From positions 1 to 41,114 of the forward strand of contig JAGRAW010000002.1 of the NCBI GenBank assembly GCA_020434415.1: a DNA stretch of 41,114 bases, written 5' to 3'. The stretch is from Bdellovibrionales bacterium. GTDB lineage: Bacteria > Bdellovibrionota_C > UBA2361 > SZUA-149. Shown here one piece after another: positions 15,220-32,227 of the stretch. The notes under the pieces were generated by a model. That model searched no databases. It was given only the letters and a program-made list of their open reading frames with translations, and was not told the origin of the DNA. Position numbers and translations under genes: made by a program. How positions within the stretch are numbered: the first letter of the stretch is position 1; every line of letters starts with the position of its first letter.

Positions 15220-16818
15220 ATGCAGAGTTTGGGCTCGATAGCGATAGATGAGCAGCGGCAGTCTCCGGTTGCCGCCCAGCCTTATGTCGTCGAAGTCCAG
15301 AATATCGACTTCTGCTATCGCAACGGCTGCAACGCCCTGCGCGACGTTTCCTTGGCATTTCACGCCGGGAAGCATTATGCGATCATGGGGCCGTCGGGCT
15401 GCGGAAAGACTACGTTACTTGGCTGTATTTCCGGCCGCCTTTCTCCTCAGCAGGGTGCAATAGTTCGTCACGGTCGAGTGGCGACCATTCATCAGGACCT
15501 GCGACTGGTAGCGAATCGAACCGCGTCGGAGAACGTGCTCCATGGAGCGATGGGACGACTCTCGCTCCTACGAACCGCGCTGCGTTTTCCGAAGGTGGAG
15601 CGAGCTCGTGCGGAGCGTTTGATTGCTCGTGTCGGGCTTGCCGCAAAAAGCAACACCTTGGTCAAGCACTTAAGCGGTGGCGAACGGCAGCGCGTGGCGA
15701 TTGCGCGGGCATTGATGCAAGATCCGGCGATTCTGTTGGCTGACGAGCCGGTGGCTGCCCTGGACCGCGAAACTGCACATGATGTCATGCAGTTGATCAG
15801 CGAGCTGGCAAGAGAACAGCAGCTTGCGGTTATTTCGGTGCTGCATGACGATCGTATCGCGGAGTCTTATGCCGATCAGATTTTTCATGTGTCGAATGGC
15901 CGACTGGTCGCCGGGCGAGAAGATCTGCGTCGCAAGTTCGACTATCCTCTCGAGCCCGTCGGACGAAGCGCTCTGCCCATAGTCTCGGCGTCTGAGACGG
16001 TCGAAGAGCGCGACACTGAACCCGGAAGGAAGGTGCAGCCCTTCAATCGTCGGCAATCGTTCCTACTCGTCTGCCTGGCTTGCAGTGTCTACATTTGGTC
16101 GATTGCTGAACTCGACATTCGGGCACGCGATCTGCAGGGAGCCGTCTGGGGTGTCGGCGCATTTTTGAAAGAGCTGGTGCCCTATTCGTGGCAGCAAATA
16201 ACGGCCATTCCCTGGACCACTTTGGGCGCCGCACTTGTCGAGACAATTCAGATGGCGCTCCTCGGCACGACGGCCGGTGTCGTGGTGTCCTGGCCGCTTG
16301 CTGCTCTTGCAGCCAAGAACGTAGGCCCACGGTGGCTGCGCAGGCCCATCCGATTCCTGTTGAACGTGATACGAACAGTGCCGTCACTAATCTGGGCGCT
16401 GCTGTTTGTCGCTGCGGTGGGCTTGGGATCTTTCGCCGGCGTGTTGGCGCTGGCGGCCTATTCGGTCGGCTACCTTAGCAAGTTCTTCTATGAAGCCTAC
16501 GAAGGTGTCGATCCGGGACCGACCGAGGCACTTCGGGAAATAGGAGCTAGCGGTTTGCAGCGCTTCTTACACGCTGTGGCTCCTGCCTCCGGTCCGGCCG
16601 TTCTATCGAGTTGCATCTTTATGCTTGAATACAACGTTCGAGCAGCGAGTGTGCTGGGCATCGTCGATGCCGGCGGTATCGGCTTCTACATGAAGCAGTA
16701 TGCCGACTACCGCGCTTTCCCCGCGCTGCTTGCATGTCTATTGTTACTACTGCTCGTGGTGGTAGTGTTCGACGCCGTTTCGTGTCGCATTCGCGAGCGC
16801 CTAGTTCAGGCTGAGTAA
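15220..16818 (+). CDS. fused PhnC-PhnE ABC transporter protein (ATPase + permease)
   Basis: A 532-residue single polypeptide with an ATP-binding subunit followed by a permease. Residues ~22-240 contain Walker A GPSGCGKTT (57-65), the signature LSGGERQRVAIA (151-162), Walker B ILLADEP (171-177) and the switch His in VLHDD. Residues ~280-530 hold about six membrane helices and the PhnE coupling motif EALREIGASGLQRF. The two parts are joined by a ~40-residue polar linker. PhnC and PhnE are normally separate proteins. The last codons (GCT GAG TAA) lie within the 104-bp repeat at 16808-16911. Confidence 0.9.
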   Translation: MQSLGSIAIDEQRQSPVAAQPYVVEVQNIDFCYRNGCNALRDVSLAFHAGKHYAIMGPSGCGKTTLLGCISGRLSPQQGAIVRHGRVATIHQDLRLVANRTASENVLHGAMGRLSLLRTALRFPKVERARAERLIARVGLAAKSNTLVKHLSGGERQRVAIARALMQDPAILLADEPVAALDRETAHDVMQLISELAREQQLAVISVLHDDRIAESYADQIFHVSNGRLVAGREDLRRKFDYPLEPVGRSALPIVSASETVEERDTEPGRKVQPFNRRQSFLLVCLACSVYIWSIAELDIRARDLQGAVWGVGAFLKELVPYSWQQITAIPWTTLGAALVETIQMALLGTTAGVVVSWPLAALAAKNVGPRWLRRPIRFLLNVIRTVPSLIWALLFVAAVGLGSFAGVLALAAYSVGYLSKFFYEAYEGVDPGPTEALREIGASGLQRFLHAVAPASGPAVLSSCIFMLEYNVRAASVLGIVDAGGIGFYMKQYADYRAFPALLACLLLLLLVVVVFDAVSCRIRERLVQAE

Positions 16819-16911
16819 CGAACGACATGCACCTGCATACTACCGAAGAGTAAAGAAGCCCGTGACGCACGTTTGCGAGCACGGGCAGGGCAGGCCCCCG
16901 AGCATCGTTAT
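16808..16911. repeat. 104-bp direct repeat, left copy (phnCE / LRR 3' junction)
   Basis: Every base matches 32124-32227 (offset 15316). It spans the last 11 bases of phnCE, the intergenic hairpin, and the last four bases of the convergent LRR gene. Beyond 16911 similarity to the LRR gene resumes after a 59-base deletion. The two copies bracket the EPS operon plus the modular GH10 gene. Confidence 0.92.
16858..16886 (-). terminator. rho-independent-type terminator for the leftward EPS operon
   Basis: GCCCGTG and CACGGGC form a 7-bp stem enclosing a nested CGCA/TGCG stem. On the minus strand the hairpin is followed by TTCTTTACTCTT. It is carried on the 104-bp repeat and lies about 140 bases after the last EPS gene stop. 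Confidence 0.65.
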
Positions 16912-17000
16912 GTCTAGCCTGGGTTGATCCCGAGGCGGAACAAGCGCGCATCTACACGTCATTGCCACCAACGGCTGGATTGGCTGTCCGACTGCAGTGC
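16912..17000 (-). pseudogene. decayed 3' fragment of the LRR-type gene
   Basis: On the minus strand this region encodes a stretch reading CALVPPRDQPRLD, clearly related to CFTFVPPPDQPKLN near the C-terminus of the intact LRR protein at 32224-32916. The fragment has a 59-base deletion next to the repeat and no full reading frame. The right-hand limit of similarity is uncertain, as it fades by about 16960-17000. Confidence 0.7.
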
Positions 17001-17027
17001 CGAGTGAGGCGGACCGGCTCTCGAGCA

Positions 17028-17771
17028 CTAATTGCCGAAGCACCTGCGGAGCCGGGCGGGAAGATGCGTCTGTCGCTTGTTGAAGACCACGCCCAGTAGG
17101 TTCCCGCCGGCATCTACCACTCGGTCACGAGCCAGCATCACCGTTCGCTTGCGGGTTCTGTCAGCTTCAACGACCAGAATTACTCCGTCTGCATTCTTGG
17201 CGATGAGGAGTCCCGCGGAACTTCGTGCAAGCGGCAGGGAGTCGATAATCACCCAGGGAAAGCGCTCTTTTAATCGCGCGATGAGAGCGCTTGAAGTCTC
17301 TGCATCTGCAAGACGGGCGAGCGCGGCCTCTTCTCGAGCCAGGTAGGCGAGGGTGAGATTGGGTTGTTCGTTCAAGCTCAAAAGATCGTTCAGATCAGTT
17401 CCTGCAATGATTGCGTCCTGAAGCACCATTCCGTCGGTAGCGTTCGGACGCACCTCTCCTAACAGTAGCACGCGCTTTCCGACGCTCTCTGCCACGAAGC
17501 GAGCAAGGCCCTCAGCAATGCTCGAGGTCCCTTCACCCGAGACAGAACCAACGAATTGAATACAGAGTGGGCGGGTATCGGCTCTCGCGGCCTCGATACT
17601 ATGAAACAGCGCTGCCATCTCGCGTCGCGCCAGCACGTCCAAGGTCCAGGACTTCTCCGAGTCGTCGGCGACTACTGCCGGCAAAGCCTGTAGCGGTGCT
17701 ATCTCGGAATACCCACTACTGTTCTCCTCCGAGGACTGGACTCCGGGAATGATCGATAAAGGGCTATTCAC
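17028..17771 (-). CDS. degenerate BY-kinase-like ATPase (last gene of EPS operon)
   Basis: A 247-residue CpsD/CapB-like protein. The fold pattern is retained: IQFVGSVSGEGTSSIAEGLA, VLLLGEVRPN, WVIIDSLPLA, GVILVVEADRTRKRTV. However, the Walker A Lys is replaced by Thr (GEGTS) and the Asp of Walker A' by Gly/Glu (LLGEVRP). No tyrosine cluster is present at the C-terminus. It is therefore probably a non-catalytic partner of the Wzz-like protein encoded just upstream, or depends on the intact kinase at 10528-11526. A GEGTS variant also occurs in other EPS-locus kinase-like proteins. Confidence 0.8.
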   Translation of the reverse strand: MNSPLSIIPGVQSSEENSSGYSEIAPLQALPAVVADDSEKSWTLDVLARREMAALFHSIEAARADTRPLCIQFVGSVSGEGTSSIAEGLARFVAESVGKRVLLLGEVRPNATDGMVLQDAIIAGTDLNDLLSLNEQPNLTLAYLAREEAALARLADAETSSALIARLKERFPWVIIDSLPLARSSAGLLIAKNADGVILVVEADRTRKRTVMLARDRVVDAGGNLLGVVFNKRQTHLPARLRRCFGN

Positions 17772-17805
17772 AACTGCTACTCCATCGAATGGCGGTAAAC
17801 GATCG

Positions 17806-19290
17806 TTACGCGGCGTCTTTCACCGAACCGTCAGGAAAATGCGGAATGCTTGCAAGCACAGGCACGTTAACATGCCGCTCTACCTCGCGAGCACTTAAAA
17901 AGCTTTGGGCACCGAATTCAGCCATCAGCGCTGCTCCGACGCCGCTTACCAGGGCCAAGCACATCGCGAGCACAAGAGTAAGCAGCTTGCGCGGCTTAAC
18001 TGCCTTGACGGGTACGACCGCTTCCTGGATGACTCCGATGTTCGCGATCTTCTGTCGGTTCATCTCGTCCTGAATACGACTCTCTTCCAGTTTTCGTTGA
18101 TAGACCTTGAAATTCTCCTCGTTCGTCTCGATTTCGCGGTTCAGCTCCCGCAGTTCCTTGTCTCGCAAATCGAGCGTCTGAATCTCACGGTCCAGCTCGG
18201 TCATTTGCTCTTGCAGGCTGTGAGCCCGAGCATGAAGCGCTTCGAGTTCTGCTTCGGTCAGGTTCGCTTCATTTTCGGCGAGGCGGTGAGCAGGGTTCGC
18301 CGACTTCACTTTGGCCGCGATGTCGCGCTCTTGCTCGCGGAGAAACTGCTCAATAAGACGGATTTGCTTACGAGTAGTGACCAGCAGCGGATTGTCGTCA
18401 TTGAACTTGGCCGAGAGACCCTGTTCGTCCAGCTTCAATGCCAGGAGCTTCGAGCGCGAGTCGACCAACACCTTATCCAGCTCACTCTGCGTGTAACGAT
18501 CCTTCGAGGCGATGATATCCGTCATCTGCTGCTTGTAGGAGCCCAACTTGTTTTTCGCTTCATCCACTCTACTCACCGTATTCTTGAGCGAAGCGTCCAG
18601 CTCGTTTCGTTGCTGAAGAAGCAGGCTACGTTGTTCTCCCAATGATGAAATCTTGTTTTCCTGCTTGAAAGTTTCCAGCCGCTTTTCGGACTCTTCCAGC
18701 GCTGTTTTGAATGCAGTCATTTGTTCCTGGAAAAATCCTGAGCTGCTCTGCGTATGCAGCTCAAGGTGTCGCGCGATGAACTTTCGAATAAGCTCATTCA
18801 ACGCTCGCGCGGCGAGTTCAGGATCCTTATGTTGAAAGGCTAGGTTTATGACGCTCGACTTCTTGACCGGCTGAATCTCTAGACTCTTGCGGAACTTCAG
18901 GAAGGCGGCGGAACGCGCGTTATCTTCGGAGTCCGATTTGATATCGTCGAACAAAGCTTCGCGGCCGAGCGACTCGATGACCTGTTCTGCGAGGTCTCTG
19001 CTACCGATGATACTTACCGCCGAGTTGATCACCTCTTCCTGGTTGAATGTGCTTACCGGCGTTTTATCGCCGATCTCCGGTCGGTAGATGAACTCTCGCC
19101 CGAACTTCACGAGTAGGCTCGACTCTGCCTCGTATTTGGGCGTCATCAGGAATGTCACCGCTGCGATTGAAATAAAAATCGCTCCGCCAACGAGCAGTGC
19201 CAATCGGCGACGTTTATGGAGAGTCGCACAGAAGAGCTGCAGATACTCGAGCGGCTCGTACGGGGACTGGGGGCTCATACTTCTCATCAT
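17806..19290 (-). CDS. Wzz/GumC-type chain-length determinant (second EPS set)
   Basis: A 494-residue polysaccharide co-polymerase. It has TM1 near residues 32-52 (LALLVGGAIFISIAAVTFLM), a Wzz motif (YEAESSLLVKFGREFIYRPE), a periplasmic coiled coil (about 190-400, rich in Glu/Gln/Leu), a proline-containing segment before TM2 (VVPVKAVKPRKLL) and TM2 (LTLVLAMCLALVSGVGAAL). It has no cytoplasmic kinase domain. It lies between wza (13-base gap) and the kinase-like gene (34-base gap). Several in-frame ATGs (19290, 19287, 19278) make the exact start uncertain. Confidence 0.88.
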   Translation of the reverse strand: MMRSMSPQSPYEPLEYLQLFCATLHKRRRLALLVGGAIFISIAAVTFLMTPKYEAESSLLVKFGREFIYRPEIGDKTPVSTFNQEEVINSAVSIIGSRDLAEQVIESLGREALFDDIKSDSEDNARSAAFLKFRKSLEIQPVKKSSVINLAFQHKDPELAARALNELIRKFIARHLELHTQSSSGFFQEQMTAFKTALEESEKRLETFKQENKISSLGEQRSLLLQQRNELDASLKNTVSRVDEAKNKLGSYKQQMTDIIASKDRYTQSELDKVLVDSRSKLLALKLDEQGLSAKFNDDNPLLVTTRKQIRLIEQFLREQERDIAAKVKSANPAHRLAENEANLTEAELEALHARAHSLQEQMTELDREIQTLDLRDKELRELNREIETNEENFKVYQRKLEESRIQDEMNRQKIANIGVIQEAVVPVKAVKPRKLLTLVLAMCLALVSGVGAALMAEFGAQSFLSAREVERHVNVPVLASIPHFPDGSVKDAA

Positions 19291-19303
19291 AAAACTGCCG
19301 AGT

Positions 19304-20041
19304 TTAGGGATTGACGGTAAACGCGAATGGGAGCGGGAGGTTTTTGCGTATATACTGATCGACCCAGCGGTTCACATTGGAAATGGGACTGCGCGGAACA
19401 TAGACTACGTCAAGCGGAGCGAGCATGATATTGTCACGCGACTCGCTCCCTTCAAACACGTCTTCCATGTCGAGAAATATCAGCTCCGGCCTGCCGCTCG
19501 AACTGTTGCGAATAATAAGTACTTCATCAAGGTAAGCTGAATCCTTCAAACCACCGACGCTCGCAATAGCTTGCAGGACATTGATGGGGCCTGCCAAAGT
19601 GACAACCCCAGGACGAGAGACTTCACCGCCGACGAAGACTTTCTCGGTCGCAAACGTGCGAACGATGACAGCGATCTCGGGCCGCTTGATCTTTGGCGCA
19701 TACTTGCGAATGAGCGCATTCTTCAATTGCTCCGGCGAGAGGCCGACAACACGTGTCTCGGAAATGAGCTGAAGCGAAATCTTTCCGTCGGGCCTGACCC
19801 GTACTGTTTCGTTGAGATCGGGATGAAAATAGAACTTGATATCTAGCTTGTCGCCTACCTGCAGAGAATAATCGGCTTTCGCGACTGGCGGTCGAACCGG
19901 TGCCAATGCTTCGACGGCAGTATCTTCGACCGCAGTGGTAGAGCAGGCGAGGCAGAATGTGAGGAGCGCTGAAGGGAGAGTCCGCAGAAAGTTTCGGCAG
20001 ATTCGGGGGGCACGATTGCGCATCAGATGTACCGTCTTCAT
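19304..20041 (-). CDS. Wza-type polysaccharide export lipoprotein (second EPS set)
   Basis: A 245-residue exporter. A lipobox (TFCLAC, Cys33) follows a signal peptide. The poly_export domain contains YSLQVGDKLDIKFYFHPDLNE and VRPDGKISLQLI. SLBB-type segments follow (VFVGGEVSRPGVVTLAGPI; DEVLIIRNSSS), and the C-terminus reads PLDVVYVPRSPISNVNRWVDQYI. It forms the outer-membrane channel for the polymer made by the upstream genes. An internal Met at codon 7 is an alternative start. The 272-base gap upstream contains a perfect hairpin just before the start codon. Confidence 0.88.
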   Translation of the reverse strand: MKTVHLMRNRAPRICRNFLRTLPSALLTFCLACSTTAVEDTAVEALAPVRPPVAKADYSLQVGDKLDIKFYFHPDLNETVRVRPDGKISLQLISETRVVGLSPEQLKNALIRKYAPKIKRPEIAVIVRTFATEKVFVGGEVSRPGVVTLAGPINVLQAIASVGGLKDSAYLDEVLIIRNSSSGRPELIFLDMEDVFEGSESRDNIMLAPLDVVYVPRSPISNVNRWVDQYIRKNLPLPFAFTVNP

Positions 20042-20047
20042 TAAAGC

Positions 20048-20313: not shown

Positions 20314-21477
20314 TCAAGACCTTATGGAGAAGGACTTTGCTCGCTTTCTCATCGCTGCCGAGTCGAATGCCTTCCCCATAGCGTCCCATGCAGGCTTCCG
20401 ACGGAAGGTTCGGTCGAGCGGCAGGGGGCGAACGGCTAGGCCGTCGGCTCGAGGAGCATGGTCGACGTACCACGAGTATCGGTCGCATAATCCCCAGGTC
20501 GCGACGAGGGTAACTGCGGGTTCGTCGAGCGCCGTCTCTAAAAACTTCCGATATTGCTCGGCAACCAACCGATCCCGCTCTCGTTCGTTCGCCGGCAGGT
20601 TCCCATCCCAGACATCAAGCTCTGTAATGTAAATCTCGAGTCCCAGGTCCGCGACCTCGCGAATGAACTCTCGAAATGACTTCCGATTGAATACTCCATG
20701 GTCGGAACGTAAGTGACCTTGGATCCCGAGTGCGTGCAGCGGGGTCTTCTCCGAAAGAAGCTTCTCGAGGAGGCGAAGTGTCTGCCGTCGAAAGCCCCCG
20801 AACCGATGGCTGTCGTACTCCAGGTAATTCTGATTCAGTACCAACCTCGCGTGAGGGTCAGCCTTCGCGGCGGCTTCGAACGCTGTTCGCACAAAATCCG
20901 GACCGAGGAGCTTAAGCCAGATGTTGGAGGTCATGCCGTCCGCTTCTTGATCCCAAATGCGGATCGGCTCGTTGACAACATCCCAGGAGTGAACGCGTCC
21001 GGCATAGCGACTCGCTACGGTGGTTACGTGCTCCTCGAGGAGTCGTCCCGCGTTGGCTTTGGTTGCCGTCTCGCTAAACCAACGAGGCAAAGACTCCCCC
21101 CAGATAAGCGTGTGCCCTCGCACAAGGGCCTTGCAATCCTCGGCAAACCGAAAAAGCATATCGGCGGGCTTGAAATCGTATTCACCTCGCATCCTTCGTA
21201 TAATGTGCCATTTGAGTTCATTGCCCGGAACGAAGAGGGCACATTCTTCCCGATAGTGTTCCGCGAGCGCTGGGTTCTCCTCGATAGAGCTCATCATGAT
21301 TTCCGAGCCGTAGAGTATGCCCTTTGCAGCGGCTCTCGCAGCAAGAGGGAGCTCAGCTTCTCGAGCAAGCAATGCAGTCGGTGGTAGAGCGAGTGTAGAG
21401 GCACTGAGGCCGAGCGCTTTTAGAAAGTCGCGACGTGAGACAGTCCAATCGGTCGCGGGAGACAAAAAGCTGCTCAC
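20314..21477 (-). CDS. GH10 endo-xylanase-like hydrolase, Tat-exported, within the EPS operon
   Basis: A 387-residue glycoside hydrolase family 10 protein. The N-terminus carries a twin-arginine signal (SRRDFLKALGLSASTLAL). The catalytic domain spans about 55-375 with the acid/base Glu170 in SWDVVNEP and the nucleophile Glu286 in YITELDVWD; GHTLIWGE, NQNYLEY and GIQGHL are also typical. GH10 enzymes cleave beta-1,4-xylan. In this setting, overlapping the downstream end of the GT26 gene by four bases, it more likely trims or releases the operon's own polymer in the periplasm. That would imply a beta-1,4-linked backbone accepted by GH10, which is inference. Confidence 0.92.
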   Translation of the reverse strand: MSSFLSPATDWTVSRRDFLKALGLSASTLALPPTALLAREAELPLAARAAAKGILYGSEIMMSSIEENPALAEHYREECALFVPGNELKWHIIRRMRGEYDFKPADMLFRFAEDCKALVRGHTLIWGESLPRWFSETATKANAGRLLEEHVTTVASRYAGRVHSWDVVNEPIRIWDQEADGMTSNIWLKLLGPDFVRTAFEAAAKADPHARLVLNQNYLEYDSHRFGGFRRQTLRLLEKLLSEKTPLHALGIQGHLRSDHGVFNRKSFREFIREVADLGLEIYITELDVWDGNLPANERERDRLVAEQYRKFLETALDEPAVTLVATWGLCDRYSWYVDHAPRADGLAVRPLPLDRTFRRKPAWDAMGKAFDSAAMRKRAKSFSIRS

Positions 21478-22238
21478 TGGGATGCGATCTTTTGCTTGAA
21501 GAGTAGCCAGAAGAACTTGGGATCCTCGAGCAGGTATCGCCGAGCCAAGCGCTTCGGCTCAGCGCAGAGCCGCCAGAACCATTCGAGGCCGTAGCGTTGC
21601 ATCCATCCTGGAGCACGCCGAACCGCCCCGGCAACAAAACTGAAACTGAAACCTATGCCGATCGCGTGCCGCGCGCCACTGGATGCACCATGGTCAGCTA
21701 TCCAGAACTCCTGTTTCGGACAGCCCAGACCGACAAAGAGGTATGTCGGTTTTGCCGAGCGGATAAGCTCGAGAATTTTTGCGTTCTCCGCCGGGTCGTT
21801 CTCGAAGCCGTAGGGAGGGCAGTAGCATCCTGTGACGCGCAACGTAGGATGTTGACGACAAAGTTCGTCGGCAGCCTTCTCGGCGACCCCGGGATCGCCG
21901 CCGAGAAGAAAGATGGATGAACCCGTCTCCGCGGCGCGCGCAGCAAGCCGTTCAAACAGATCGGTACCGTTGACACGACCCTTGAGCGGTGATCCGAGAA
22001 ACTTTGCGGCCCACAAAAGCGGGACCCCGTCGCACACTACGAGATCCGCCTGGGAGTAGCACTGCCGGAAGCGGCTGTCGTTCTGCAGCTTCATGACATG
22101 ATCGACGTTCGGCGTAACGGTGAACGAAAACGACTGCGCTTCGGCGAGCGCCTGAATCCGGTCGACGGTTTCATCGAGGCTGACGTTGTCGATAGGGACA
22201 CCCAAGATCGTCACTTTGGCAGGACTCGGTTCGGTCAT
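21474..22238 (-). CDS. WecG/TagA/CpsF-family glycosyltransferase (GT26)
   Basis: A 254-residue cytoplasmic or membrane-associated transferase. GT26 hallmarks are TPNVDHVMKL, DLVVCDGVPLLWAAKFLG, RVNGTDLFERL, FLLGGDPGVAEKAA, LFVGLGCPKQEFWI and the C-terminal RAPGWMQRYGLEWFWRLCAEPKRL. It adds a sugar to an undecaprenyl-linked intermediate. It overlaps both neighbours by four bases (ATGA), so translation is coupled through this part of the operon. Confidence 0.93.
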   Translation of the reverse strand: MTEPSPAKVTILGVPIDNVSLDETVDRIQALAEAQSFSFTVTPNVDHVMKLQNDSRFRQCYSQADLVVCDGVPLLWAAKFLGSPLKGRVNGTDLFERLAARAAETGSSIFLLGGDPGVAEKAADELCRQHPTLRVTGCYCPPYGFENDPAENAKILELIRSAKPTYLFVGLGCPKQEFWIADHGASSGARHAIGIGFSFSFVAGAVRRAPGWMQRYGLEWFWRLCAEPKRLARRYLLEDPKFFWLLFKQKIASQ

Positions 22239-23428
22239 ACTGGAGTCCCCTCCGCGGTTCGGTCTGACCGTTGCGACCCAGCCTCATCGTACAGATTGAG
22301 CAAAGCATCGACGTAGCGTTCTTTCGTCAAATGTTCGCTCGCCCACGTCCGTCCATTCGCTCCTAGCTCCGCACATCTCCACCGATCCTCCCAAAGCTGC
22401 TGAATCGCATCTGCAAGCATCGCTGCATTTCCGGGCTCGACCAGCATCCCACGCTCGCCGTCGAGCACTAGCTCGGGAACGCCGCCGATAGCGGTAGCAA
22501 CGACCGGAAGGCCCATTGCTAATCCCTCTGCTGCGGCCAGAGAGAATGTTTCGTAGCTCACGCTGGGCAAAGCGAGTAAGCGTGCACCGCGATAAAAACG
22601 CCTCAGTTCGTCCTGTGAGAGGAATCCGACGAACTCGACGTTCGACCCCGCCTGGCTGCGTAGAAACTCCTCTTCGCCACCCGTGCCTGCGATCCTGAAT
22701 AATATACTAGGCATCCTTCGAGCCGCATCAAGAAGGATTCGAACGCCCTTCTCTGCACTGAGTCGTCCGGCGAACGCAACATATTCTCCCGATGCCGGTT
22801 GCGCCGGTTCAGCAGGGATCTCGACGGCATTCCAGACGGTTCGAATTCGCTCGGCGGGAAATCCCGCATCAATGAGCTTTTGCCGCATGAAGTCGGTGGG
22901 GGTTATCAAGAGCGCGACGGCGTCGTGAAAGAGCCTGAACTTACGTACGAGGAAACCACGTAGGGCGTACACGATGCTCTCCGCATAATTGTCGCGGCAG
23001 TTCTGAATGATGCACCAGTGCTCACCGGAGTGGAGGCACTTCTCGCAGACCATACCGTTGTGCAGGTGATACCAGGTGGGACAGGTCAAAATCTGGCAAT
23101 GAACGGTGAACAAAGAGGGGACACCGGCGTCTCGACAGGCGGCAAGTACTGAAGGGGACCACTGGGGGAACAAATTATGAGCATGCACGACGTGAGGTCT
23201 AACCCGCTCGATGTACTTTCGCATATAGCGATATGCTTCAGGGTTGTAGATCCCCGTGAACGCGGCGGTGAGTTTCTTTCCGATACTCGCTTCCAGCTCC
23301 CGGCTGGATCTGATGAGCAAGTCGGTTTCGATGCCGCGCTCCTTCAGCCACTCGGTCGTTTGAAGAACGACACGCTCCTCGCCGCCCCCGATACTTCGCT
23401 GCTGGTTGTATACTTGCGCTACTCGCAT
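22235..23428 (-). CDS. GT4-family glycosyltransferase
   Basis: A 397-residue GT-B transferase. It has an N-terminal Glyco_transf_4 region (GGGEERVVLQTTEWL; VVHAHNLFPQWSP) and a C-terminal GT1/GT4 region with VAFAGRLSAEKGVRILLDA and the EX7E-like motif PSVSYETFSLAAAEGLAMGLPVVAT. A cysteine-rich insertion (CPTWYHLHNGMVCEKCLHSG) is frequent in one GT4 subgroup and may bind metal. It probably extends the lipid-linked repeat unit. It is separated from the GT2 gene by 46 bases with no notable element. Confidence 0.92.
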   Translation of the reverse strand: MRVAQVYNQQRSIGGGEERVVLQTTEWLKERGIETDLLIRSSRELEASIGKKLTAAFTGIYNPEAYRYMRKYIERVRPHVVHAHNLFPQWSPSVLAACRDAGVPSLFTVHCQILTCPTWYHLHNGMVCEKCLHSGEHWCIIQNCRDNYAESIVYALRGFLVRKFRLFHDAVALLITPTDFMRQKLIDAGFPAERIRTVWNAVEIPAEPAQPASGEYVAFAGRLSAEKGVRILLDAARRMPSILFRIAGTGGEEEFLRSQAGSNVEFVGFLSQDELRRFYRGARLLALPSVSYETFSLAAAEGLAMGLPVVATAIGGVPELVLDGERGMLVEPGNAAMLADAIQQLWEDRWRCAELGANGRTWASEHLTKERYVDALLNLYDEAGSQRSDRTAEGTPV

Positions 23429-23474
23429 TGAATCTCGAAAATTTCCGCTTCACGTTGCCGGGCGGAAAAATGTC

Positions 23475-24440
23475 TTAGTTTGTTCTGCCGGGATGACTTA
23501 GCTCACCACTAGGACACAACGCACCAGCGTACGCCAGAAAGTAGCGGAGCGAACAATGACGAGCTAATGCGAGCTCCGGCTGACGAAACGCCAGGGCAAA
23601 TCCCAGTGATGGGAGCACCACCGCTGCGAGATGTCCGAGCCGGAGAACGAACAAGAGAGCCAGCTTCGATTTCGGAAGTTCGCTCCTATCGAGCCCCGCC
23701 CGGTGACTAGCACACTTCTCGACAAGGGGAAAAAGGTACTGGGACTGGAGTCTTGCTGCGGGCACGACCTGATACATCACCGCGCTAGGCGAAGCGACGA
23801 TTCGAGCCTTTGCACGAATCGCCTTTCTGAAAAACTCAGCATCCTCACCGATTGAGCTGCTCTCATTGAAACCACCGATGTCGGAAAAAAGAGAGCGTCT
23901 GACCATCACGTTCCCGGTGCCGGGAACGAACTCTGCCTTGCGGCGAGGATCGAAACGACTGAACCACCGAGGCTCCCGCGCGAAAAACGGATTCTCGCCA
24001 AGCAACCGACGGACAGTGGGTTTCGGGTTGCTGGATACATCGTTCGGCAGCAGTAACAACGAGGGACCGCCGATACAGTCTCCACCAGTCTCGAGAGCAG
24101 TTCGGTGCAGTTCCATCAACCAGCGAGGCGCTGCGATCTGGTCGTCGTCGAGAAAAGCTATCCAGGTGCCCCGTGCCTCACGAACGCAGGCGTTTCGCGC
24201 AGCGGCAACGCCCTTATTCTGTTGCGTCAAGAAGCGAAACGGCACTGGTGAGGTGGACTCGGCCCAAGCGAGAACTTCGGTTGTTTTATCGGTCGAACCG
24301 TCGTCAACCACGACTATCTCGAATGATTCTCCGAAGCTCGACATCTGCTGATAAACGCTCTCCAACGTCTGCTTTAGCAAGTGGGACCGGTTGTAGGTGC
24401 AAAGACAAACCGAAACTGCGGGAGTCGGGTGGAAGCTCAT
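23475..24440 (-). CDS. GT2-family glycosyltransferase
   Basis: A 321-residue GT-A transferase. SVCLCTYNRSHLLKQTLESV and EIVVVDDGSTDKTTEVL form the nucleotide-sugar fold, FLDDDQIAAPRWLMEL holds the DxD-type metal site, and GGFNESSSIGEDAEFFRKA holds the ED catalytic-base motif. The C-terminal ~70 residues contain one hydrophobic stretch (LALLFVLRLGHLAAVVLPSLG), suggesting membrane association. Its start overlaps the stop of the polymerase gene by four bases. Confidence 0.92.
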   Translation of the reverse strand: MSFHPTPAVSVCLCTYNRSHLLKQTLESVYQQMSSFGESFEIVVVDDGSTDKTTEVLAWAESTSPVPFRFLTQQNKGVAAARNACVREARGTWIAFLDDDQIAAPRWLMELHRTALETGGDCIGGPSLLLLPNDVSSNPKPTVRRLLGENPFFAREPRWFSRFDPRRKAEFVPGTGNVMVRRSLFSDIGGFNESSSIGEDAEFFRKAIRAKARIVASPSAVMYQVVPAARLQSQYLFPLVEKCASHRAGLDRSELPKSKLALLFVLRLGHLAAVVLPSLGFALAFRQPELALARHCSLRYFLAYAGALCPSGELSHPGRTN

Positions 24441-25807
24441 GGCGCACCCGTAGGGGAAGGATGATCTGTCTGCAGACTGCTATTATACAGCTCGGATGCG
24501 CGAAGGGAAAAAACGAGCTTCGAAACGCCCACCATGACGACAAGGGTCGCCATGTTACTCATGATCATCACAGACTCCATTAGGCCGTTCAGAAGCGCAA
24601 ATATTACGAGCGATCCGACGAGGCAAATGTCGAGACTTGCTCCGCGACGCCGGTACCGAACAGCGACCCACACGACACCGAAGCTGATAGCGACATACAA
24701 GAGCAGTCCCACTAGACCGAGGCTCAGGAGCAGCTCGACGTAGGTAGAATGAGCCTGGGTGACAACCCAATCTTGGGTTGCGAGGATGGTGTCGGCGTAG
24801 CGGGATGTCCAGAAGGAGTCGTAGCCGTAACCCAGCAACGGTCGCTGTTCGATGTAACGAAACAACTGGCTCCATAAGGGGATTCTTCCCGTAAGCGTAA
24901 TCATTTCCGAGTCCGCTCTCCCGCTCGAGAGCGTGGAGGTGACGAGGGGGACGATAACCTCGCGGCCAAGCATAGCGGTCGTGCCGATGAAGGCAGCCAA
25001 AAGCGAAAAGGCCACTTTCGTCGGAAGACGCTCCGTGAGCAGCCAAAAAAGAAAGGGGGCGAGGGGCGTGAGCACCAAGCATGTTCTTGACTTTGTCAAA
25101 AGGAGAAATACCGTCGCTTCCAGCAACACGGCGAGATAGACAGTTCGCCAACGATCGCTTTCTAACGCTTGGGTGCCGGTTGCTAGTAGCAGCAGCGCAC
25201 AGTTTATCGCCTGACTATTTGGATGCAGGGTGCCCGAGAATCGGTACTCGCCGGAGAAAGGATGAAACGTCCCCAGGATCAACTCCGCGAGGATGCCGAC
25301 ATGAAGGTAGCCGAAGCTGCTTACCGCAACCCAAACAACAAAGTCTCTTAAGCTGAAACGCCACGAAATCGCGTAAGCGCCGATACAGAGCATGCTGAGA
25401 ACGATTATTCGACGACCGGTAAGACCCGGATCGACCGACCAAGCAAAGCTCAGCGCTGACCACACGAGAAACACTCGGATAAGCCAGCCCAACCACGGAT
25501 TGCCGATCGCGTCCGAGCGCTCGCGGTAGAGGGCTGTGACGACGATTCCCCAACACCCGACGACGATAAGCACTAACCGTCTGAGCAGGTTCCCGTCCTC
25601 TACCTTCTCGGTGAACTCTCCGAGGGACGGACTGAATCCCTCATGGCTCAAAAGAGAGAAATAGAAATCGTGCTGAATTAGAAAGAACGCGATGAACAGA
25701 AACACCATCGAGAACCACGGACGGCCCCTGAGGCGGGCGCGACTCAGCGTTGCCGGCGCATACTCGAGCGGTCTTCTAGACAGCGCCGGGGAGACGAGGT
25801 TACTCAT
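24437..25807 (-). CDS. O-antigen ligase/polymerase-like protein (Wzy)
   Basis: A 456-residue multi-spanning membrane protein with about 10-12 hydrophobic helices. A Wzy/WaaL-type motif region has RFSGTLHPNSQAINCALLLL in the middle and a periplasmic loop with RPLLGYGYDSFW and VTQAHSTYVELLLSLGLVGL. It polymerises undecaprenyl-linked repeat units in the periplasm, in concert with the Wzz-like protein. I chose the ATG at 25807, which overlaps the flippase stop by eight bases. The upstream ATG at 25834 would extend the overlap to 35 bases. Confidence 0.88.
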   Translation of the reverse strand: MSNLVSPALSRRPLEYAPATLSRARLRGRPWFSMVFLFIAFFLIQHDFYFSLLSHEGFSPSLGEFTEKVEDGNLLRRLVLIVVGCWGIVVTALYRERSDAIGNPWLGWLIRVFLVWSALSFAWSVDPGLTGRRIIVLSMLCIGAYAISWRFSLRDFVVWVAVSSFGYLHVGILAELILGTFHPFSGEYRFSGTLHPNSQAINCALLLLATGTQALESDRWRTVYLAVLLEATVFLLLTKSRTCLVLTPLAPFLFWLLTERLPTKVAFSLLAAFIGTTAMLGREVIVPLVTSTLSSGRADSEMITLTGRIPLWSQLFRYIEQRPLLGYGYDSFWTSRYADTILATQDWVVTQAHSTYVELLLSLGLVGLLLYVAISFGVVWVAVRYRRRGASLDICLVGSLVIFALLNGLMESVMIMSNMATLVVMVGVSKLVFSLRASELYNSSLQTDHPSPTGAP

Positions 25808-27170
25808 CGGTCTGAAGCTCCACCGTCGGCTCAATTGCGATCTCGCTCCGTTCGGTTGTTGCCGCCTTCAAACACCAGTATCTTGCGAGTGCGCTCGCGA
25901 CGTGTGCGACGAAAAGCGATGCTGCTGCACCGACTGTTCCCGAAAGCTGCACCAGCCAGACACCGGCGGTGGCCAACACTAGCAGAGGCACGATGTTGAT
26001 TTTGAAGTCGACGTCCGATTTTCCGAGCGCGAACAAACCTCGCGAGTAGACGAACCCGACGCTAGCAGCGACAAGTCCCAGAGCTAAGAAGGCAAGGGCG
26101 AGTCCGTTGCCAGCGTAGTCCGTGCCGTAGAGGTTTTGGAGCAGCCAATCGCCGGCCAGCGCGAGCGCTACCGAAACCGAACCTAAGAATGCGACTAGAA
26201 ACAATGCTGCCCGACGAGAATAGTCGCAGAGCGCGGAGACGCCGTGAGTCGCGTAGACCGTTGCAATCTTCGGTCCGAGATAGTTCTGCAATCCGATAAG
26301 TGGAGCATTCAGCACACCAAGAATGCCAATGCACGCGGCCCATAGCCCGGTCGATTCCGTTCCGTGAAAGTAGGTGATCAACCACGGATAAAAATTCATG
26401 CTGAGCGCCCACAGTAACCCACTCGCGAGGATCCATTTCCCTAGCTGCCAGTTGATGAAAAAATCAGCGACAAGCGCTCGGGCGGAGAGCTCAAACTCGC
26501 CACGATTTGCCGCGAACCAGCAGAGCAAGCTCACTGCGCTAGCCATTCCAATAGTGGCAAGAGCAAGATTGGCCGAGAGCGTCGCTCCCAGTGCGAAGTA
26601 GAGGAGCCCCCCGACCTGCAAGGTGCCGGCCGCGACATCGAACAAAAGAGCGCTCATCGTTCGAAGCTCCGCAAAACAGAGCCTGCGCACAAAGTCTCGG
26701 AGCATCACCAGGGAGATAGCCCCGGCAAGTACTAGCAGCGTCGCATGGAAATCGGTCATTGTGCCTTGCAGCGAGAGGAACATCCACGCAAGCGACACTA
26801 GAAGAACCGTCCCCGCGGAGAAGGCGATTTGATGAGCGATGACGCTCCCGCGGTACGACCGCTGCTCACGCTGATCGCCCAGCTGCGGCCGTCGGATCAT
26901 ATACGGCGTGGAGATAATCGCCGTCTGAAGTTCGGTAATGAATACACTAATGCTTAACGCGAGCATGTACAGGCCGAGTTCGTCTTTACCCGCGAATCGT
27001 CCAATGATGACGCTGGTCAAGAACCCGGTCATGCTGACCGCACCCTGATCGAACAGAGTAAGCGTTCCTTTGTGCGAGACGAGCGATGTCAGACGGTGCG
27101 TGATCCGTGGGACAGGCGCGGGAAGTCCGCTCACTACCTGCGGGACCGAAAGTTTAGAAACTACCTTCAC
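25800..27170 (-). CDS. Wzx-type flippase / polysaccharide transport protein
   Basis: A 456-residue MVF-superfamily membrane protein with about 12-14 hydrophobic helices. The N-terminal pattern is LTLFDQGAVSMTGFLTSVIIGRFAGKDELGLY, followed by YMIRRPQLGDQREQRSYRGS. A C-terminal Glu/Thr-rich tail is cytoplasmic. It would flip the undecaprenyl-linked repeat unit across the inner membrane. It lies between the priming transferase (15-base gap) and the polymerase (overlap), as expected in a Wzx/Wzy operon. Confidence 0.85.
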   Translation of the reverse strand: MKVVSKLSVPQVVSGLPAPVPRITHRLTSLVSHKGTLTLFDQGAVSMTGFLTSVIIGRFAGKDELGLYMLALSISVFITELQTAIISTPYMIRRPQLGDQREQRSYRGSVIAHQIAFSAGTVLLVSLAWMFLSLQGTMTDFHATLLVLAGAISLVMLRDFVRRLCFAELRTMSALLFDVAAGTLQVGGLLYFALGATLSANLALATIGMASAVSLLCWFAANRGEFELSARALVADFFINWQLGKWILASGLLWALSMNFYPWLITYFHGTESTGLWAACIGILGVLNAPLIGLQNYLGPKIATVYATHGVSALCDYSRRAALFLVAFLGSVSVALALAGDWLLQNLYGTDYAGNGLALAFLALGLVAASVGFVYSRGLFALGKSDVDFKINIVPLLVLATAGVWLVQLSGTVGAAASLFVAHVASALARYWCLKAATTERSEIAIEPTVELQTDE

Positions 27171-27185
27171 CGTCCGGGGCCCTCT

Positions 27186-28682
27186 CTACCTTGCCCCTCT
27201 GCCTTTGACGACGGCGGGGATGGTCCCGAGGAGAATCGACAGGTCGAGCAAGAGCGACCAGTTGTCGATGTACTGAATATCCATCCGCATCCAGTCGGAA
27301 AACGAGATGTCGCTTCGTCCGCTGATCTGCCATGTGCACGTCAGGCCGGGTTTCACGCTGAAACGTCGGCGATGCCAGTCTTCCTCAAAGCCATTATAGT
27401 CACGGACGGGAAGGGGACGAGGTCCAACCAAGCTCATGTCTCCCATGAGCACGTTCAGTAGTTGAGGCAGCTCGTCGATACTAGTCTTGCGAAGGAACTT
27501 CCCAATGGTGGTGACCCGCGGATCGTTGGTCATCTTGAATGCGGGACCGTCCACTTCGTTCGCCGCCTTGAGCTCATCCAAGCGCGCCTCCGCGCCAACC
27601 TGCATGGTGCGAAACTTCACGAGGGGGAACAATCGCTTGTTGTAACCAAGCCGTTCCTGAACGAAAAACACGGGCCCGCGGGAGGTCCCTTTCACTAGCG
27701 CCGCCACAAGTAAAAACAGGGGAGCAAAAGCGAACAGCAGTGTTAACGAACCAACGAAATCGAGCGCGCGCTTGGCAAGAAGGCGGGGAACTTCGACTTT
27801 AGCAGGGCTTACGCTGATAAATGCACCCTCAGCGTATTGTTCCGCTCGAAGGTAGCCGGCATCTGATTGAAATATCTCCGAAAGAAAGCGCACCATAATG
27901 CCCTGACGCGCGCAATCCGCGACGATTCGAGAGATCTCCGGATAGCGAGACTCGATTGGAAGGCAAATAATGACTTCATCGATCACGGTCGTCCGCAGAT
28001 ACTCCGGAAGTCCGTCGAGGTCGGAAACCAGGACATAGCCTGACGCTTGGAATTCAGAATCTCCGGTCCCGTCGTCGGCAAAGCCAAGCAATTGGTAGCC
28101 GAGTTCGGGGGCTCGTTCGAACCTTGCAGCGAGTTTCATTGCGCGGGTGCCGGTTCCGACGAGTACGACGTATCTGAGGTTCCGGCCGTAGAGTCGAACC
28201 TGTCGGAGCAGGAACTTGAGAGACAGTCTTGCGGTGACAGTTACGAACGATACAGGAACGTAGAATAATACCGAGCTGAGGTAGACGTCCCTCAATACCG
28301 GTCCCGACATCCCCCCGGAGAGGAAACGCGAGGCGATATCCGCTGTGAGAAGGACTAATGCGCCTGCGGTGGTCGCCTTCAATATCTGGCGGGTATCATC
28401 CAGCATGCTGGTGAGGCGTCGCGAGTTGTAGAGCTTGAAGTAGCTAAAAAAGGCATGCCAAATCATTGAGAAGAGCAATGCCAAAGCGACGCTCTGGATG
28501 GGTATCCGGGTTTCCGCGAGCTCGGAGATTGAAAAATGCTCCAAGGCCGACGTTATGCCCAGACTTTCTGCTGACAACTTGGCGCTTACAAGGTTCGACA
28601 GCGCAAGGCAGCCAAACATCGCAGTCAAATCGAACAGTTGTAGAATCACAACTGTTAACGATCTACGACGGGAAGGGCGCAT
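27186..28682 (-). CDS. exopolysaccharide polyprenyl glycosylphosphotransferase (priming enzyme, GumD/WcaJ-like)
   Basis: A 498-residue inner-membrane enzyme that starts the repeat unit by moving a sugar-1-phosphate, usually glucose, to undecaprenyl phosphate. It has four to five N-terminal membrane helices, a Rossmann-like CoA-binding region (YVVLVGTGTRAMKLAARF), a further helix (SLTLLFAFAPLFLLVAALV), and the C-terminal catalytic core with PVFFVQERLGYNKRLFPLVKFRTM, TSIDELPQLLNVLMGDMSLVGPRP and KPGLTCTWQISGRSD. The start has GGAG nine bases upstream. It is the first gene of the leftward EPS operon. Confidence 0.95.
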   Translation of the reverse strand: MRPSRRRSLTVVILQLFDLTAMFGCLALSNLVSAKLSAESLGITSALEHFSISELAETRIPIQSVALALLFSMIWHAFFSYFKLYNSRRLTSMLDDTRQILKATTAGALVLLTADIASRFLSGGMSGPVLRDVYLSSVLFYVPVSFVTVTARLSLKFLLRQVRLYGRNLRYVVLVGTGTRAMKLAARFERAPELGYQLLGFADDGTGDSEFQASGYVLVSDLDGLPEYLRTTVIDEVIICLPIESRYPEISRIVADCARQGIMVRFLSEIFQSDAGYLRAEQYAEGAFISVSPAKVEVPRLLAKRALDFVGSLTLLFAFAPLFLLVAALVKGTSRGPVFFVQERLGYNKRLFPLVKFRTMQVGAEARLDELKAANEVDGPAFKMTNDPRVTTIGKFLRKTSIDELPQLLNVLMGDMSLVGPRPLPVRDYNGFEEDWHRRRFSVKPGLTCTWQISGRSDISFSDWMRMDIQYIDNWSLLLDLSILLGTIPAVVKGRGAR

Positions 28683-28867
28683 GTACTACTACTCCGAAAG
28701 AAACTACGAGCCGAAAGAAATACGAAAAGGTGTGGGTTCCGCGGTGAAACGGAATAGACGCGGCATGCCACACTTCAATTCGCAATCGTCGACCTGGTGA
28801 GATGCGATTCAATGAAGCGTGCGCAGAGGCGTTGGACCTCACCCGGTGCTGCCGCGGACGAAAACCT

Positions 28868-28932
28868 AGTATAAATCTACGTAGGAGTAAAGCGTTGGTT
28901 ATGTTTAGTTTTTTCTAAACGAAATCTAAACG
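28868..28932 (-). promoter_or_regulatory. EPS operon promoter region with repeated TCTAAACG sites
   Basis: In the 368-base gap 28683-29050, the minus strand has a TATACT -10-like box (28873-28868), about 190 bases before the priming-enzyme start and with no good -35. Just upstream (28903-28932) are two direct TCTAAACG copies 11 bases apart, one helical turn, plus an inverted GTTTAG copy, which looks like a regulator-binding site. No gene is supported in the rest of the gap. Confidence 0.4.
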
Positions 28933-29050
28933 GAAGCCTCACTCCTCCAAAAATTACCAGGGGGCGACAGAGGTCCGCACTTGCTGGGTCGGGACCGGTT
29001 GAGCAGTGCCTACCGGCGCAGTCGATTCGCGGCGTTACAGCGCTTGATTG

Positions 29051-31675
29051 CTATGGATCAACCCAAGGCTCGCGCTCGTTGAACGCTTCGAGCAGGCCGT
29101 CGTACGCGGGCTTTGGCTGGACGTTCTCGTCGAAGATCAGCGGCCAAGTTTCGTAGCCGAGTGTCCAGTTCCACCAGCTGTGCTTGTCCGACAGTCCCCA
29201 CAACTGGAAGTAGCCGCGATTCTCGATACTTAGGAAGATCCGCGCGATTTTCTTGTAGGCCTGCTTCTGGCGCTCTAGCTGATAGGACGTGTTTACCGGG
29301 ATGCGAATGTCGAGCTCTGTAATGAAGTTCAGAAAACCCAGGTCAGACATCTCTTGCATCCGCTGTTGCAACGGGAACGTCGGGGATAATACGTCATCGA
29401 CTCGTACGTGGAGCTGCCAGCCAAGGCCGTGAATCGGTACGCCTTGGGAGCGAAGCCGTACCAACATGTCTCGGACGGTCCGATATTTTCCGAGATTGGT
29501 TTCGATGTCGTAGTCGTTGTACAAGAGTACTGCATTCGGTTCGACATGGTGCGCTTCTTCGAACGCGATCCGCATAAAGTCTTCTCCCAGTGCGCGATAC
29601 CAATAGGAGTTTTTGTAGCCGCTGGAATAATCCGAAGCCGCCTCGTTTACGACGTCCCAGACCGCAACCTTTCCTTGGTAACGGGAAGCAACAGTACGGA
29701 TGTGATTGCGCATCACTGCTTCGGCTTGCGCGTGGGGAGTAGCTTTCACCCAGTCGAGCACCAGCGCATCGTCCGCCCACACTAGCGGATGACCATGGAG
29801 AAGCATGCCAAATGTTTCGGCCATCGCGACCATCTGATCGGAAAGGTGGAAGTCAAAGTCGCCCTGATGCTGCTCGACTCTCGCCCAATACACCGTAAAC
29901 GTCTGGACATTGAATTCCTGTCCCGCCATAGCGACCACTTGAGGATCATCAAGCTCCCAGACAGGTGTGCCGATCGGGATGCCGAAACACTGGGCCGCTG
30001 CCTTCAGGGTGTCGCCCGTGCAGGTCGCTTCTCCTCCTGAGCTGGACGACGAACCGCTGGATGAGGATGACGAGGAACTACTCGAAGAGCTAGTCGATGA
30101 AGATGAGCTTGATGACGAGGAACTGCTGCTTGAGGACGAGCTACTCGATGAGGAGGAACTGCTCGAAGAAGAACCAGACGATGACGAGCTCGAGCCGCCA
30201 TCCCCGGAATTTGATCCGCAGTTTTCAAGTTCGATGACCGGAACTGCCGCGATAGTACCGATCGAACCGTCCAATTTTGGATAGACTCGGTGAAGGCTTG
30301 ACGCTCCGGCGCTCACACTTGGGGACCGGGCAGTGACCAGGCCGATACGATCGGCGCCTATAAGTTCGTGTATCGCTAGGTGCGGGTGTGCGTGCGGTGC
30401 TAGGGTGTGACGGTGCGTTTCCGATCCGAGACCGTATCCGGCAGTGTCGCGGACATCAATCTGATAGTGTGTCGAGCGAGCGCCCTGATTTGAGAGAACG
30501 AACCAGTTGCTTGCGCCTAGATAGGTGTTGACAAGAGCCCCCACCCCGCACGATTGGCGGGATCGAGTTGCTTCAGGTTGAAGCGCGTACGCCCATTCGA
30601 TCCGATTAGTGTCGTCTGGGACGAGACCGTAGAAAAGACTCTGCGCGAGAAAACCTCGTCCGGCTGTTCGGGACTCATCGCAAGTAACGCGGAAGCTTCC
30701 CGTAGTGCGGTCACCTATCACGGAATTGAGATAGCGATGGACTTGTGCGAACGCAGGGACGGTAATCCGTTCGTCATGAAGTCGCGAGCCATCCCCGGCG
30801 AACACTTCGAACCGAACCTCGAGCGAAGCGGAATTGAGATTAGCCACCTCCGCCCAGTTAAGCGCCGGGTCCATAGTGTTTGCGGGAATAAGGCCGGAGT
30901 CGCACCTGCCTTCCGTCACCTGAAGCGGAAATGCGAACGTGAACCTGTCCGAATCCGTTTGCCCACCATAGCGGATTAGAAATGCAGAATAAGGTTGGTC
31001 CTCCACTCGTGGAACCAAGTCGAAGAAACCGACTTCCTTGCCCTGGTCATGGCCTAGCGGGAGGTCGATTCTCTGCCCGGGCCGAAGTTCGATCTGGGTG
31101 CGACGCGCACTGCGCGAATCGACTGTTCCCGCGGGAAATCTTCTAAGCTCGGCGACAAAAGGGCGATCACCGTGATTGATCACCGTCAGCCAGTTGAGAA
31201 CAGCCGGTCCGTCAGGATCTGGATTCATTGAGTTGTAAAGGCCGGAGGTCGTTCCGCGACGAAGAGCTGCTGTTGGCAGGGTATAGGCGTATTCGAGAGG
31301 TTCGTCCGAGTCTACAGAGGCATAACGATAGATGGCTGTAAGACAGGAAAGCGACTGCCCCTGCGATGCACTGGGGGTAATTCGGAAGGTTCCGTACTTG
31401 TTCCGCGTATGCTCAGCGTCGAGCATCAGGTGAAGCGTGCCGTAAGCCGCAACTGTTGCACCTCTGGATTCAAGCAGGGTCCCTTCGCTTGTAAGCAGGT
31501 CGAAACGGAACTCTATGGGCGTTCTGGTTAGATTGCTACATTCGACGACGTTGGCTTGCTCCAAGTATCCATTCCATGAGCCCTCAATCGTGTCTGCAGT
31601 GGCGGTATGCGAGAGAGTATGCGTCAGGAGCGCAAGCAGCAGAGAGAGCACGACGTAAACTGCCTGGGATGGCAT
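29051..31675 (-). CDS. secreted modular GH10 endo-xylanase with repeat domain and poly-Ser linker
   Basis: An 874-residue protein. It has a signal peptide (residues 1-~28). Four related ~105-115-residue segments follow, at about 30-135, 145-255, 260-370 and 376-485. They share a strand pattern such as LNWLTVINHG / LNWAEVANLN / SNWFVLSNQG and ends such as LEYAYTLP / FTFAFPL / IEWAYALQ, so they may be beta-sandwich repeats; I know no named family for them. A linker of about 55 residues (~495-550) is almost all serine. A GH10 domain (about 556-870) carries acid/base Glu680 in WDVVNE and nucleophile Glu789 in ITELDI. It is probably extracellular and xylan-active. It ends 368 bases upstream of the EPS operon start, on the same strand. 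Confidence 0.93.
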   Translation of the reverse strand: MPSQAVYVVLSLLLALLTHTLSHTATADTIEGSWNGYLEQANVVECSNLTRTPIEFRFDLLTSEGTLLESRGATVAAYGTLHLMLDAEHTRNKYGTFRITPSASQGQSLSCLTAIYRYASVDSDEPLEYAYTLPTAALRRGTTSGLYNSMNPDPDGPAVLNWLTVINHGDRPFVAELRRFPAGTVDSRSARRTQIELRPGQRIDLPLGHDQGKEVGFFDLVPRVEDQPYSAFLIRYGGQTDSDRFTFAFPLQVTEGRCDSGLIPANTMDPALNWAEVANLNSASLEVRFEVFAGDGSRLHDERITVPAFAQVHRYLNSVIGDRTTGSFRVTCDESRTAGRGFLAQSLFYGLVPDDTNRIEWAYALQPEATRSRQSCGVGALVNTYLGASNWFVLSNQGARSTHYQIDVRDTAGYGLGSETHRHTLAPHAHPHLAIHELIGADRIGLVTARSPSVSAGASSLHRVYPKLDGSIGTIAAVPVIELENCGSNSGDGGSSSSSSGSSSSSSSSSSSSSSSSSSSSSSSSSSTSSSSSSSSSSSSGSSSSSGGEATCTGDTLKAAAQCFGIPIGTPVWELDDPQVVAMAGQEFNVQTFTVYWARVEQHQGDFDFHLSDQMVAMAETFGMLLHGHPLVWADDALVLDWVKATPHAQAEAVMRNHIRTVASRYQGKVAVWDVVNEAASDYSSGYKNSYWYRALGEDFMRIAFEEAHHVEPNAVLLYNDYDIETNLGKYRTVRDMLVRLRSQGVPIHGLGWQLHVRVDDVLSPTFPLQQRMQEMSDLGFLNFITELDIRIPVNTSYQLERQKQAYKKIARIFLSIENRGYFQLWGLSDKHSWWNWTLGYETWPLIFDENVQPKPAYDGLLEAFNEREPWVDP

Positions 31676-32123
31676 ACTTCTGTCCCAGAGACCTCTGAAA
31701 GAACGTGAACGTCACCGCACGAACCGTCCAGTTCAAGATTACCCGACCCGACCTCATATATTCTCGTCACCGGGGCATGTGTGCTGAAGAGCTTGAACCG
31801 CAATGAATCTGTTCTTATCGAGATTTCGCAATCTCCATAACGAAAGCGCGGAGACTTCGATGGAGCGCCTAGCAGATCGCTGAAAAAGATCATCCAGGGA
31901 CTTTCTCAGGTCGTGCGAGTAAAGACTTTTGCTTTTGCGCACTCCAAATTTTAAGGACTTAGTGTCTTTGAAATCTGCCCGCCGGTCCGTCACCTCGACA
32001 GTCGCGCGGGTCGAATGAACGTTCGTCTGGGCGGCCCCAGGCCGGACCGTGTAGACGCGCTTGTCTGTCCGTGCTCAGGATGCTGGCGCGGCGCGCTGAC
32101 AGGGCGCTGACCCCTTTCCGGAA
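31676..32123. other. long intergenic region without a supported gene
   Basis: About 450 bases between the GH10 start and the right 104-bp repeat. Short frames exist but have no recognisable motif or ribosome site. The promoter of the GH10 gene should be in the left part (TTGAAC at about 31735 on the minus strand has no good -10). A perfect 14-bp palindrome, CCTTTCCGGAAAGG (32113-32126), lies across the border of the repeat. Confidence 0.5.
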
Positions 32124-32227
32124 AGGCTGAGTAACGAACGACATGCACCTGCATACTACCGAAGAGTAAAGAAGCCCGTGACGCACGTTTGCGAGCACGG
32201 GCAGGGCAGGCCCCCGAGCATCGTTAT
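32124..32227. repeat. 104-bp direct repeat, right copy (phnCE / LRR 3' junction)
   Basis: Identical to 16808-16911. The first bases (AGGCTGAGTAA) equal the end of phnCE but have no phnCE sequence before them, so they look like a remnant. The last four bases belong to the intact LRR gene. Confidence 0.92.
32174..32202 (-). terminator. rho-independent-type terminator after the LRR gene
   Basis: Same hairpin as at 16858-16886 (GCCCGTG / CACGGGC with a nested CGCA/TGCG stem), followed on the minus strand by TTCTTTACTCTT. It lies about 20 bases after the LRR stop codon, the expected place. Confidence 0.65.

Follow-up and report, generated by a model that had tools for sequence, protein, structure and literature searches.

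An EPS operon with GH10 genes between identical direct repeats in a Bdellovibrionales bin and its possible capture by end joining

A 15-kb EPS block lies between two copies of one direct repeat, at the junction of two convergent genes, raising the question of how such a block came to be placed there. We analyzed this locus in a window of 41,114 nt (the whole stretch of DNA under study, a single contig), which belongs to a draft assembly of 4.54 Mb in 677 contigs with a completeness of 79.7%.

The 104-bp repeat and its neighboring genes

Alignment of both copies of the repeat, termed R in the following, revealed 104 identical positions out of 104, a direct orientation and a spacing of 15,316 bp, which bears out the base-for-base match described in the first-pass annotation (Table 1). 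R covers exactly the 3′-3′ junction of phnCE and the LRR gene, and each outer copy is continuous with one intact gene. The end of phnCE, which had been placed inside each repeat, is indeed contained in both copies with its last 11 nt. The 3′ end of the LRR gene, likewise placed inside R, is present there as well, limited to the last 4 nt of the gene, to which the CGTTAT of the left copy corresponds in antisense direction; the stop codon of the LRR gene falls in the final bases of R. A terminator hairpin, also read into R before, did not withstand scrutiny: the terminator scanner gave no call, and the folding z-scores of -1.2 and -1.6 against shuffled sequences amount to a slight excess, which together rule out a strong terminator. 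R can also be ruled out as an RNA or tRNA element, having no Rfam or tRNA match. Inspection by eye showed that R has an AAC...GTT outer stem and that the RYYYAAC/GTTRRRY integron core is absent.

R is present in two copies in the whole 4.54-Mb bin. This count rules out a dispersed repeat, the reading that the first-pass annotation had opposed to an insertion scar and for which it had proposed a genome-wide search. Within 1.88 Mb of the bin, R is the longest exact repeat, a run of N aside. A query spanning the left copy had no match in 57 related genomes, the exact core of R was absent from the viral contigs searched, and R was likewise absent from the plasmids searched.

The phnCE homologues of two related genomes (G013 and G014) end at the same point as phnCE in the window, whose end is thus the natural one. 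The distribution of phnCE is patchy; within the order it is present in these two genomes only, and a phnCE query in the named-genome search returned no match. No homologue of the LRR protein was found in the 46 related genomes of the clade. With the LRR gene missing from these genomes and phnCE patchy, no relative was found in which phnCE adjoins the LRR gene with the block lacking, i.e. an empty site.

Beyond the left R lies the decayed LRR-gene fragment that had been noticed at this edge. Its assignment holds, chance being very unlikely: its local score of 24 was reached by none of 3000 real genome fragments (maximum 22) and by none of 1000 shuffled sequences. This remnant is about 75% identical to the LRR gene, whereas the adjoining R is 100% identical. 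On the inner side of the right R copy, no additional phnCE remnant was found. The window contains six perfect palindromes of 14 bp, including the one at positions 32113-32126, and a truncated DDE transposase ORF (12707-13174), which lies 3.6 kb to the left of the left R and overlaps a universal stress protein gene in its start region.

Table 1. Coordinates of the repeats, blocks and genes discussed in the text; positions refer to the window unless a locus is named.
Feature	Position	Strand	Remarks
Second scar, left repeat	2743..2867	+	125 nt; last 27 nt of msrAB and 3′ end of PDT
Second inserted block	2868..4006	-	1.1 kb; two hypothetical genes, 2904-3368 and 3365-3865
Second scar, right repeat	4007..4131	+	125 nt, 96%; truncated msrAB end and 3′ end of PDT
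phnCE, fused phosphonate ABC transporter ATPase-permease	15220..16818	+	natural C-terminus
Left copy of R	16808..16911	+	last 11 nt of phnCE, intergenic hairpin region, CGTTAT
Decayed 3′-end fragment of LRR gene	16912..17010	-	beyond left R; gap of ~59 nt relative to right copy
Wzc-like tyrosine autokinase, CpsD/CapB type	17028..17771	-	score below curated cut-off
Wzz/GNVR chain-length protein	17806..19290	-	
Wza-like polysaccharide export protein	19304..20041	-	
GH10a, GH10 glycoside hydrolase inside EPS operon	20314..21477	-	RR motif near N-terminus
WecG/TagA/CpsF glycosyltransferase	21474..22238	-	Pfam scan
GT4 glycosyltransferase	22235..23428	-	Pfam scan
GT2 glycosyltransferase	23475..24440	-	Pfam scan
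Wzy / O-antigen-ligase-like polymerase	24437..25834	-	Pfam scan
Wzx-like flippase	25800..27170	-	25% identity, E 1e-23, to annotated oligosaccharide flippase
WbaP-type initiating sugar phosphotransferase	27186..28682	-	
GH10b, C-terminal GH10 domain	29051..31675	-	874 aa
Perfect palindrome CCTTTCCGGAAAGG	32113..32126	.	14 bp; spans exact block/right-repeat junction
Right copy of R	32124..32227	+	104/104 identical; runs into intact LRR gene
LRR-like protein gene	32224..33066	-	280 aa; no homologue in 46 related genomes
Ku/LigD set and divergent Ku	L061:18269-19177, L062:188-1126 (contig C655); L170:5917-6855 (contig C665)		

Gene content and origin of the 15-kb block

The complete Wzx/Wzy operon and the GH10 gene that had been described between the repeats were both recovered. 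The gene set of a Wzx/Wzy-dependent EPS operon is present with initiating transferase, flippase, polymerase, Wzz/Wzc and export protein, the Wzx-like flippase being recognized by its 25% match only and having no match in Pfam or NCBIfam. In the direction of transcription the order is GH10b, WbaP-type, Wzx-like, Wzy-like, GT2, GT4, WecG-type, GH10a, Wza-like, Wzz-like and Wzc-like. Solved xylanases are matched by both GH10a and GH10b, and the RR motif of the former suggests a Tat signal. The N-terminal part of GH10b, outside its GH10 domain, is matched by a protein encoded on another contig (L097:6354-7484) with 28% identity (E 1e-24), indicative of a paralogous domain. Separate from the inserted EPS operon and outside of it, the window harbors an XrtA-like export set at 4042-12316, composed of TPR, Wza-like and fused PDT/PDH genes and divergent Wzz, Wzc and TPR genes, which is conserved across the order.

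It is probable that the block was inserted as one unit. The first-pass annotation had proposed such an acquisition between phnCE and the LRR gene, and the anatomy of the locus, the restriction of R to two copies and GH10a speak for this proposal; neither an empty site nor a foreign composition could be added in its favor. GH10a has no ortholog in 46 genomes of the phylum, where the best match reaches 34%, and is 47% identical to a GH10 protein encoded on a plasmid of Nostoc sp. UHCC 0302 (NZ_CP151100.1) within an EPS operon of matching order. Because of this difference between the clade and the Nostoc plasmid operon, the module is of a kind that is carried on plasmids in other phyla. Judged from these sequence comparisons, the likeness to the Nostoc plasmid and the distance of GH10a from its clade support acquisition. 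Like the block, the Nostoc operon comprises, in this order, a sugar transferase, a flippase, a polymerase, glycosyltransferase, a WecG-type protein, GH10 and a tyrosine autokinase. It differs in lacking GH10b and, in the annotated stretch, a separate Wza, its non-GH10 genes are at most 50% identical to those of the block, and it has transposases nearby where the block has long direct repeats instead. The composition of the block is ordinary, with a tetranucleotide distance at the 69th-85th percentile and a GC content of 0.55-0.57. The comparison of the block with the rest of the genome, which the first-pass annotation had recommended, thus returned no foreign signature in either measure, and a foreign base composition is ruled out as a mark of the block.

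A second repeat-flanked block in the same contig

The same 41-kb contig contains a second direct-repeat pair of 125 nt with 96% identity, which the first reading had missed. It encloses a block of 1.1 kb between the convergent genes msrAB (plus strand) and PDT (minus strand, a fused prephenate dehydratase/dehydrogenase). Both pairs can be written as A> R X R <B, where X is the block and R contains the 3′ ends of the plus-strand and the minus-strand gene with the short gap that separates them. At both scars the left copy joins an intact A and the right copy an intact B, the junction being duplicated, and the repeat sequences of the two scars are unrelated. As both scars lie in one contig and both at convergent junctions, a local hot spot or a shared cause is possible.

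No msrAB gene adjoining PDT was found in relatives. At neither inner side of the 1.1-kb insert is there a diverged remnant, and the insert occurs only once in the bin. Its genes matched no defence family and no plasmid, reached a phage family below threshold only and matched one viral contig with 35%. A search of 1.88 Mb of the bin (116 contigs) found no further pair that was long, near-identical and non-tandem, and in relatives lacking Ku, 212 kb of partly overlapping loci contained no such repeat pairs. Other repeat pairs of the bin were rejected as further scars, those of contigs C11 and C555 being GGACACCC-rich dispersed repeats and those of C33 and C333 duplicates that have diverged to 74-75%. 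The intergenic repeats at L020:9021-9412 and in contig C555 (3591-5139), which are rich in GGACACCC/GGGTGTCC, are palindromic, dispersed and REP-like. A dispersed repeat of ~183 bp occurs at L023:7022-7205, C213:1533-1718 and C644:5875-6055 (87-91% identical); it matches itself in both orientations and is MITE-like.

The second pair also bears on the reliability of the assembly. Exact overlaps of 77 nt between the contig ends of C44 and C658, and of C649 with itself, indicate that the assembly was probably made with k = 77. Since R with its 104 bp exceeds this probable k, it would form one node of the assembly graph, and its resolution relied on reads or read pairs. The block could hence have been misplaced by traversing one real R twice, as a phnCE-R-LRR path together with a 15,316-bp circle of X and R would give an identical graph. 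Yet the junctions of R with X on both sides are still required under such an artefact, so that R must exist at least twice or X must form a circle closed by R. Moreover, the copies of the 125-bp pair share no exact run above 71 nt, for which reason this pair is not a graph repeat; it is unambiguous in a k = 77 graph and has the same anatomy. We therefore regard an assembly artefact as improbable.

Routes by which the block may have been inserted

Direct repeats at gene 3′ ends around a block of genes give the classic look of an island, which would make R the att site of an element that lost its integrase or was moved in trans. Of the features of an integrase-mediated island, the block displays the flanking direct repeats, but not an integrase, a tRNA/tmRNA site or a deviant composition. 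No integrase, recombinase or transposase was detected when the main ORFs of the block were scanned with Pfam, and ARAGORN found no tRNA or tmRNA in the window. Nor does the block resemble a transposon, for which a transposase, terminal inverted repeats and a short target duplication are typical: no terminal repeat of at least 10 nt is common to the insert ends, and the best terminal inverted match, of 9 nt, is located off the block ends. Like att-flanked genomic islands, the block encodes adaptive surface functions and is bounded at gene 3′ ends by perfect direct repeats. It differs from them in the lack of any mobility gene, in an R that recurs in no other element among the relatives, plasmids and viral contigs searched, and in the presence of a second pair of the same geometry and unrelated sequence. 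Hence, we consider site-specific integration highly improbable. A likeness also exists to the variable segments between repeats that are common in bacteria and known from strain comparisons, where gene blocks are inserted or deleted between direct repeats in the absence of a mobile element, largely ascribed to illegitimate recombination (PMC2884548). In that study 10-18% of the segments have repeats, mostly shorter than 30 bp, whereas the repeats described here are 104 and 125 bp long and reach across the ends of both genes.

As the best explanation of the whole we tentatively put forward the capture of a ready-made EPS operon by end joining with duplication of the junction. The 3′-3′ junction of phnCE and the LRR gene would have suffered a double-strand break that left long staggered ends, these ends would have been filled in, and Ku/LigD would have ligated a foreign linear fragment carrying the EPS operon and its in-operon GH10 between the filled ends, leaving target duplications of at least 100 nt. 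Since the duplicated segment is the 3′-3′ junction, phnCE and the LRR gene would both have kept intact ends. The 1.1-kb insert might be a second example, older or less homogenised. More doubtful is the wider proposal that Ku/LigD end joining captured both the 15-kb operon and the 1.1-kb cassette at long-staggered breaks and that duplications of at least 100 nt are its readable signature.

The large-block scar is explained nearly as well by an additive single crossover of the Campbell type, in which a circle carrying X and a copy of the junction recombined inside R and left R on both sides. Such an event yields exactly the arrangement A-R-[B' fragment]-X-[A' fragment]-R-B, and it accounts for the statistically solid and diverged LRR remnant as donor-derived as well as for the identity of R, by gene conversion across the crossover. 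It demands, however, a donor circle that held this very junction beside X, and the same again for the unrelated second insert; the LRR gene has no homologue in relatives, and a diverged remnant is missing at the inner sides of the 1.1-kb insert. Overall, we judge this route to be unlikely. A foreign donor is dispensable if a tandem duplication was followed by partial deletion, or if a replication fork copied X elsewhere and then returned ~100 nt upstream, as template switching to an earlier point gives the R-X-R geometry and the composition of the block is native-like. These routes are decidedly improbable, given that the 1.1-kb insert is single in the bin, that the large block has no near-identical copy in the sampled contigs (1.88 Mb) and that GH10a points outside the phylum.

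The entry of operons without an integrase into chromosomes goes mostly unseen. If end-joining capture holds true, R-X-R scars with intact neighbors would be a signature of end joining that can be counted across genomes with and without Ku, and such counts would show the extent of bacterial NHEJ in gene acquisition. Owing to the identical R copies, ordinary RecA recombination could excise the block and restore phnCE-R-LRR. The perfect repeats would thus predict a clean RecA-dependent loss of EPS, possibly an on/off switch for the biofilm matrix.

Several observations count against end-joining capture or lend it support. The identity of 100% in R and of ~75% in the LRR remnant is not given by a single duplication with independent decay, so that either R was homogenised later by gene conversion or the remnant derives from a donor. 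Two scars in one 41-kb contig are unexpected for random breaks. The known outcomes of bacterial NHEJ are mostly small deletions (PMC10932983), and we found no bacterial NHEJ case with duplications above 100 nt reported in the literature. In mammalian cells, tandem duplications arise when staggered breaks are filled in and then joined in a Ku-dependent manner, and the overhang sets their length (PMC8355091). The genome analyzed here has Ku and LigD, too, but those mammalian duplications contain no captured fragment, let alone a 15-kb insert. We searched for Ku after the staggered-break model had already been formed. One contig of the bin (C655) encodes a canonical Ku, with genes for the ligase and the primase-polymerase of LigD next to it; their domains (Ku_bact, NHEJ ligase and LigD polymerase) all score above the NCBIfam cut-offs. 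As NHEJ/Ku is common, with about 22% of bacterial genomes having it (PMC7719229), its presence lends modest support only. Among the genomes of the clade, 2 of 46 have Ku, this bin counted. A second Ku of the bin is divergent (31 bits), and the LigD ligase and primase-polymerase are apparently encoded by separate genes.
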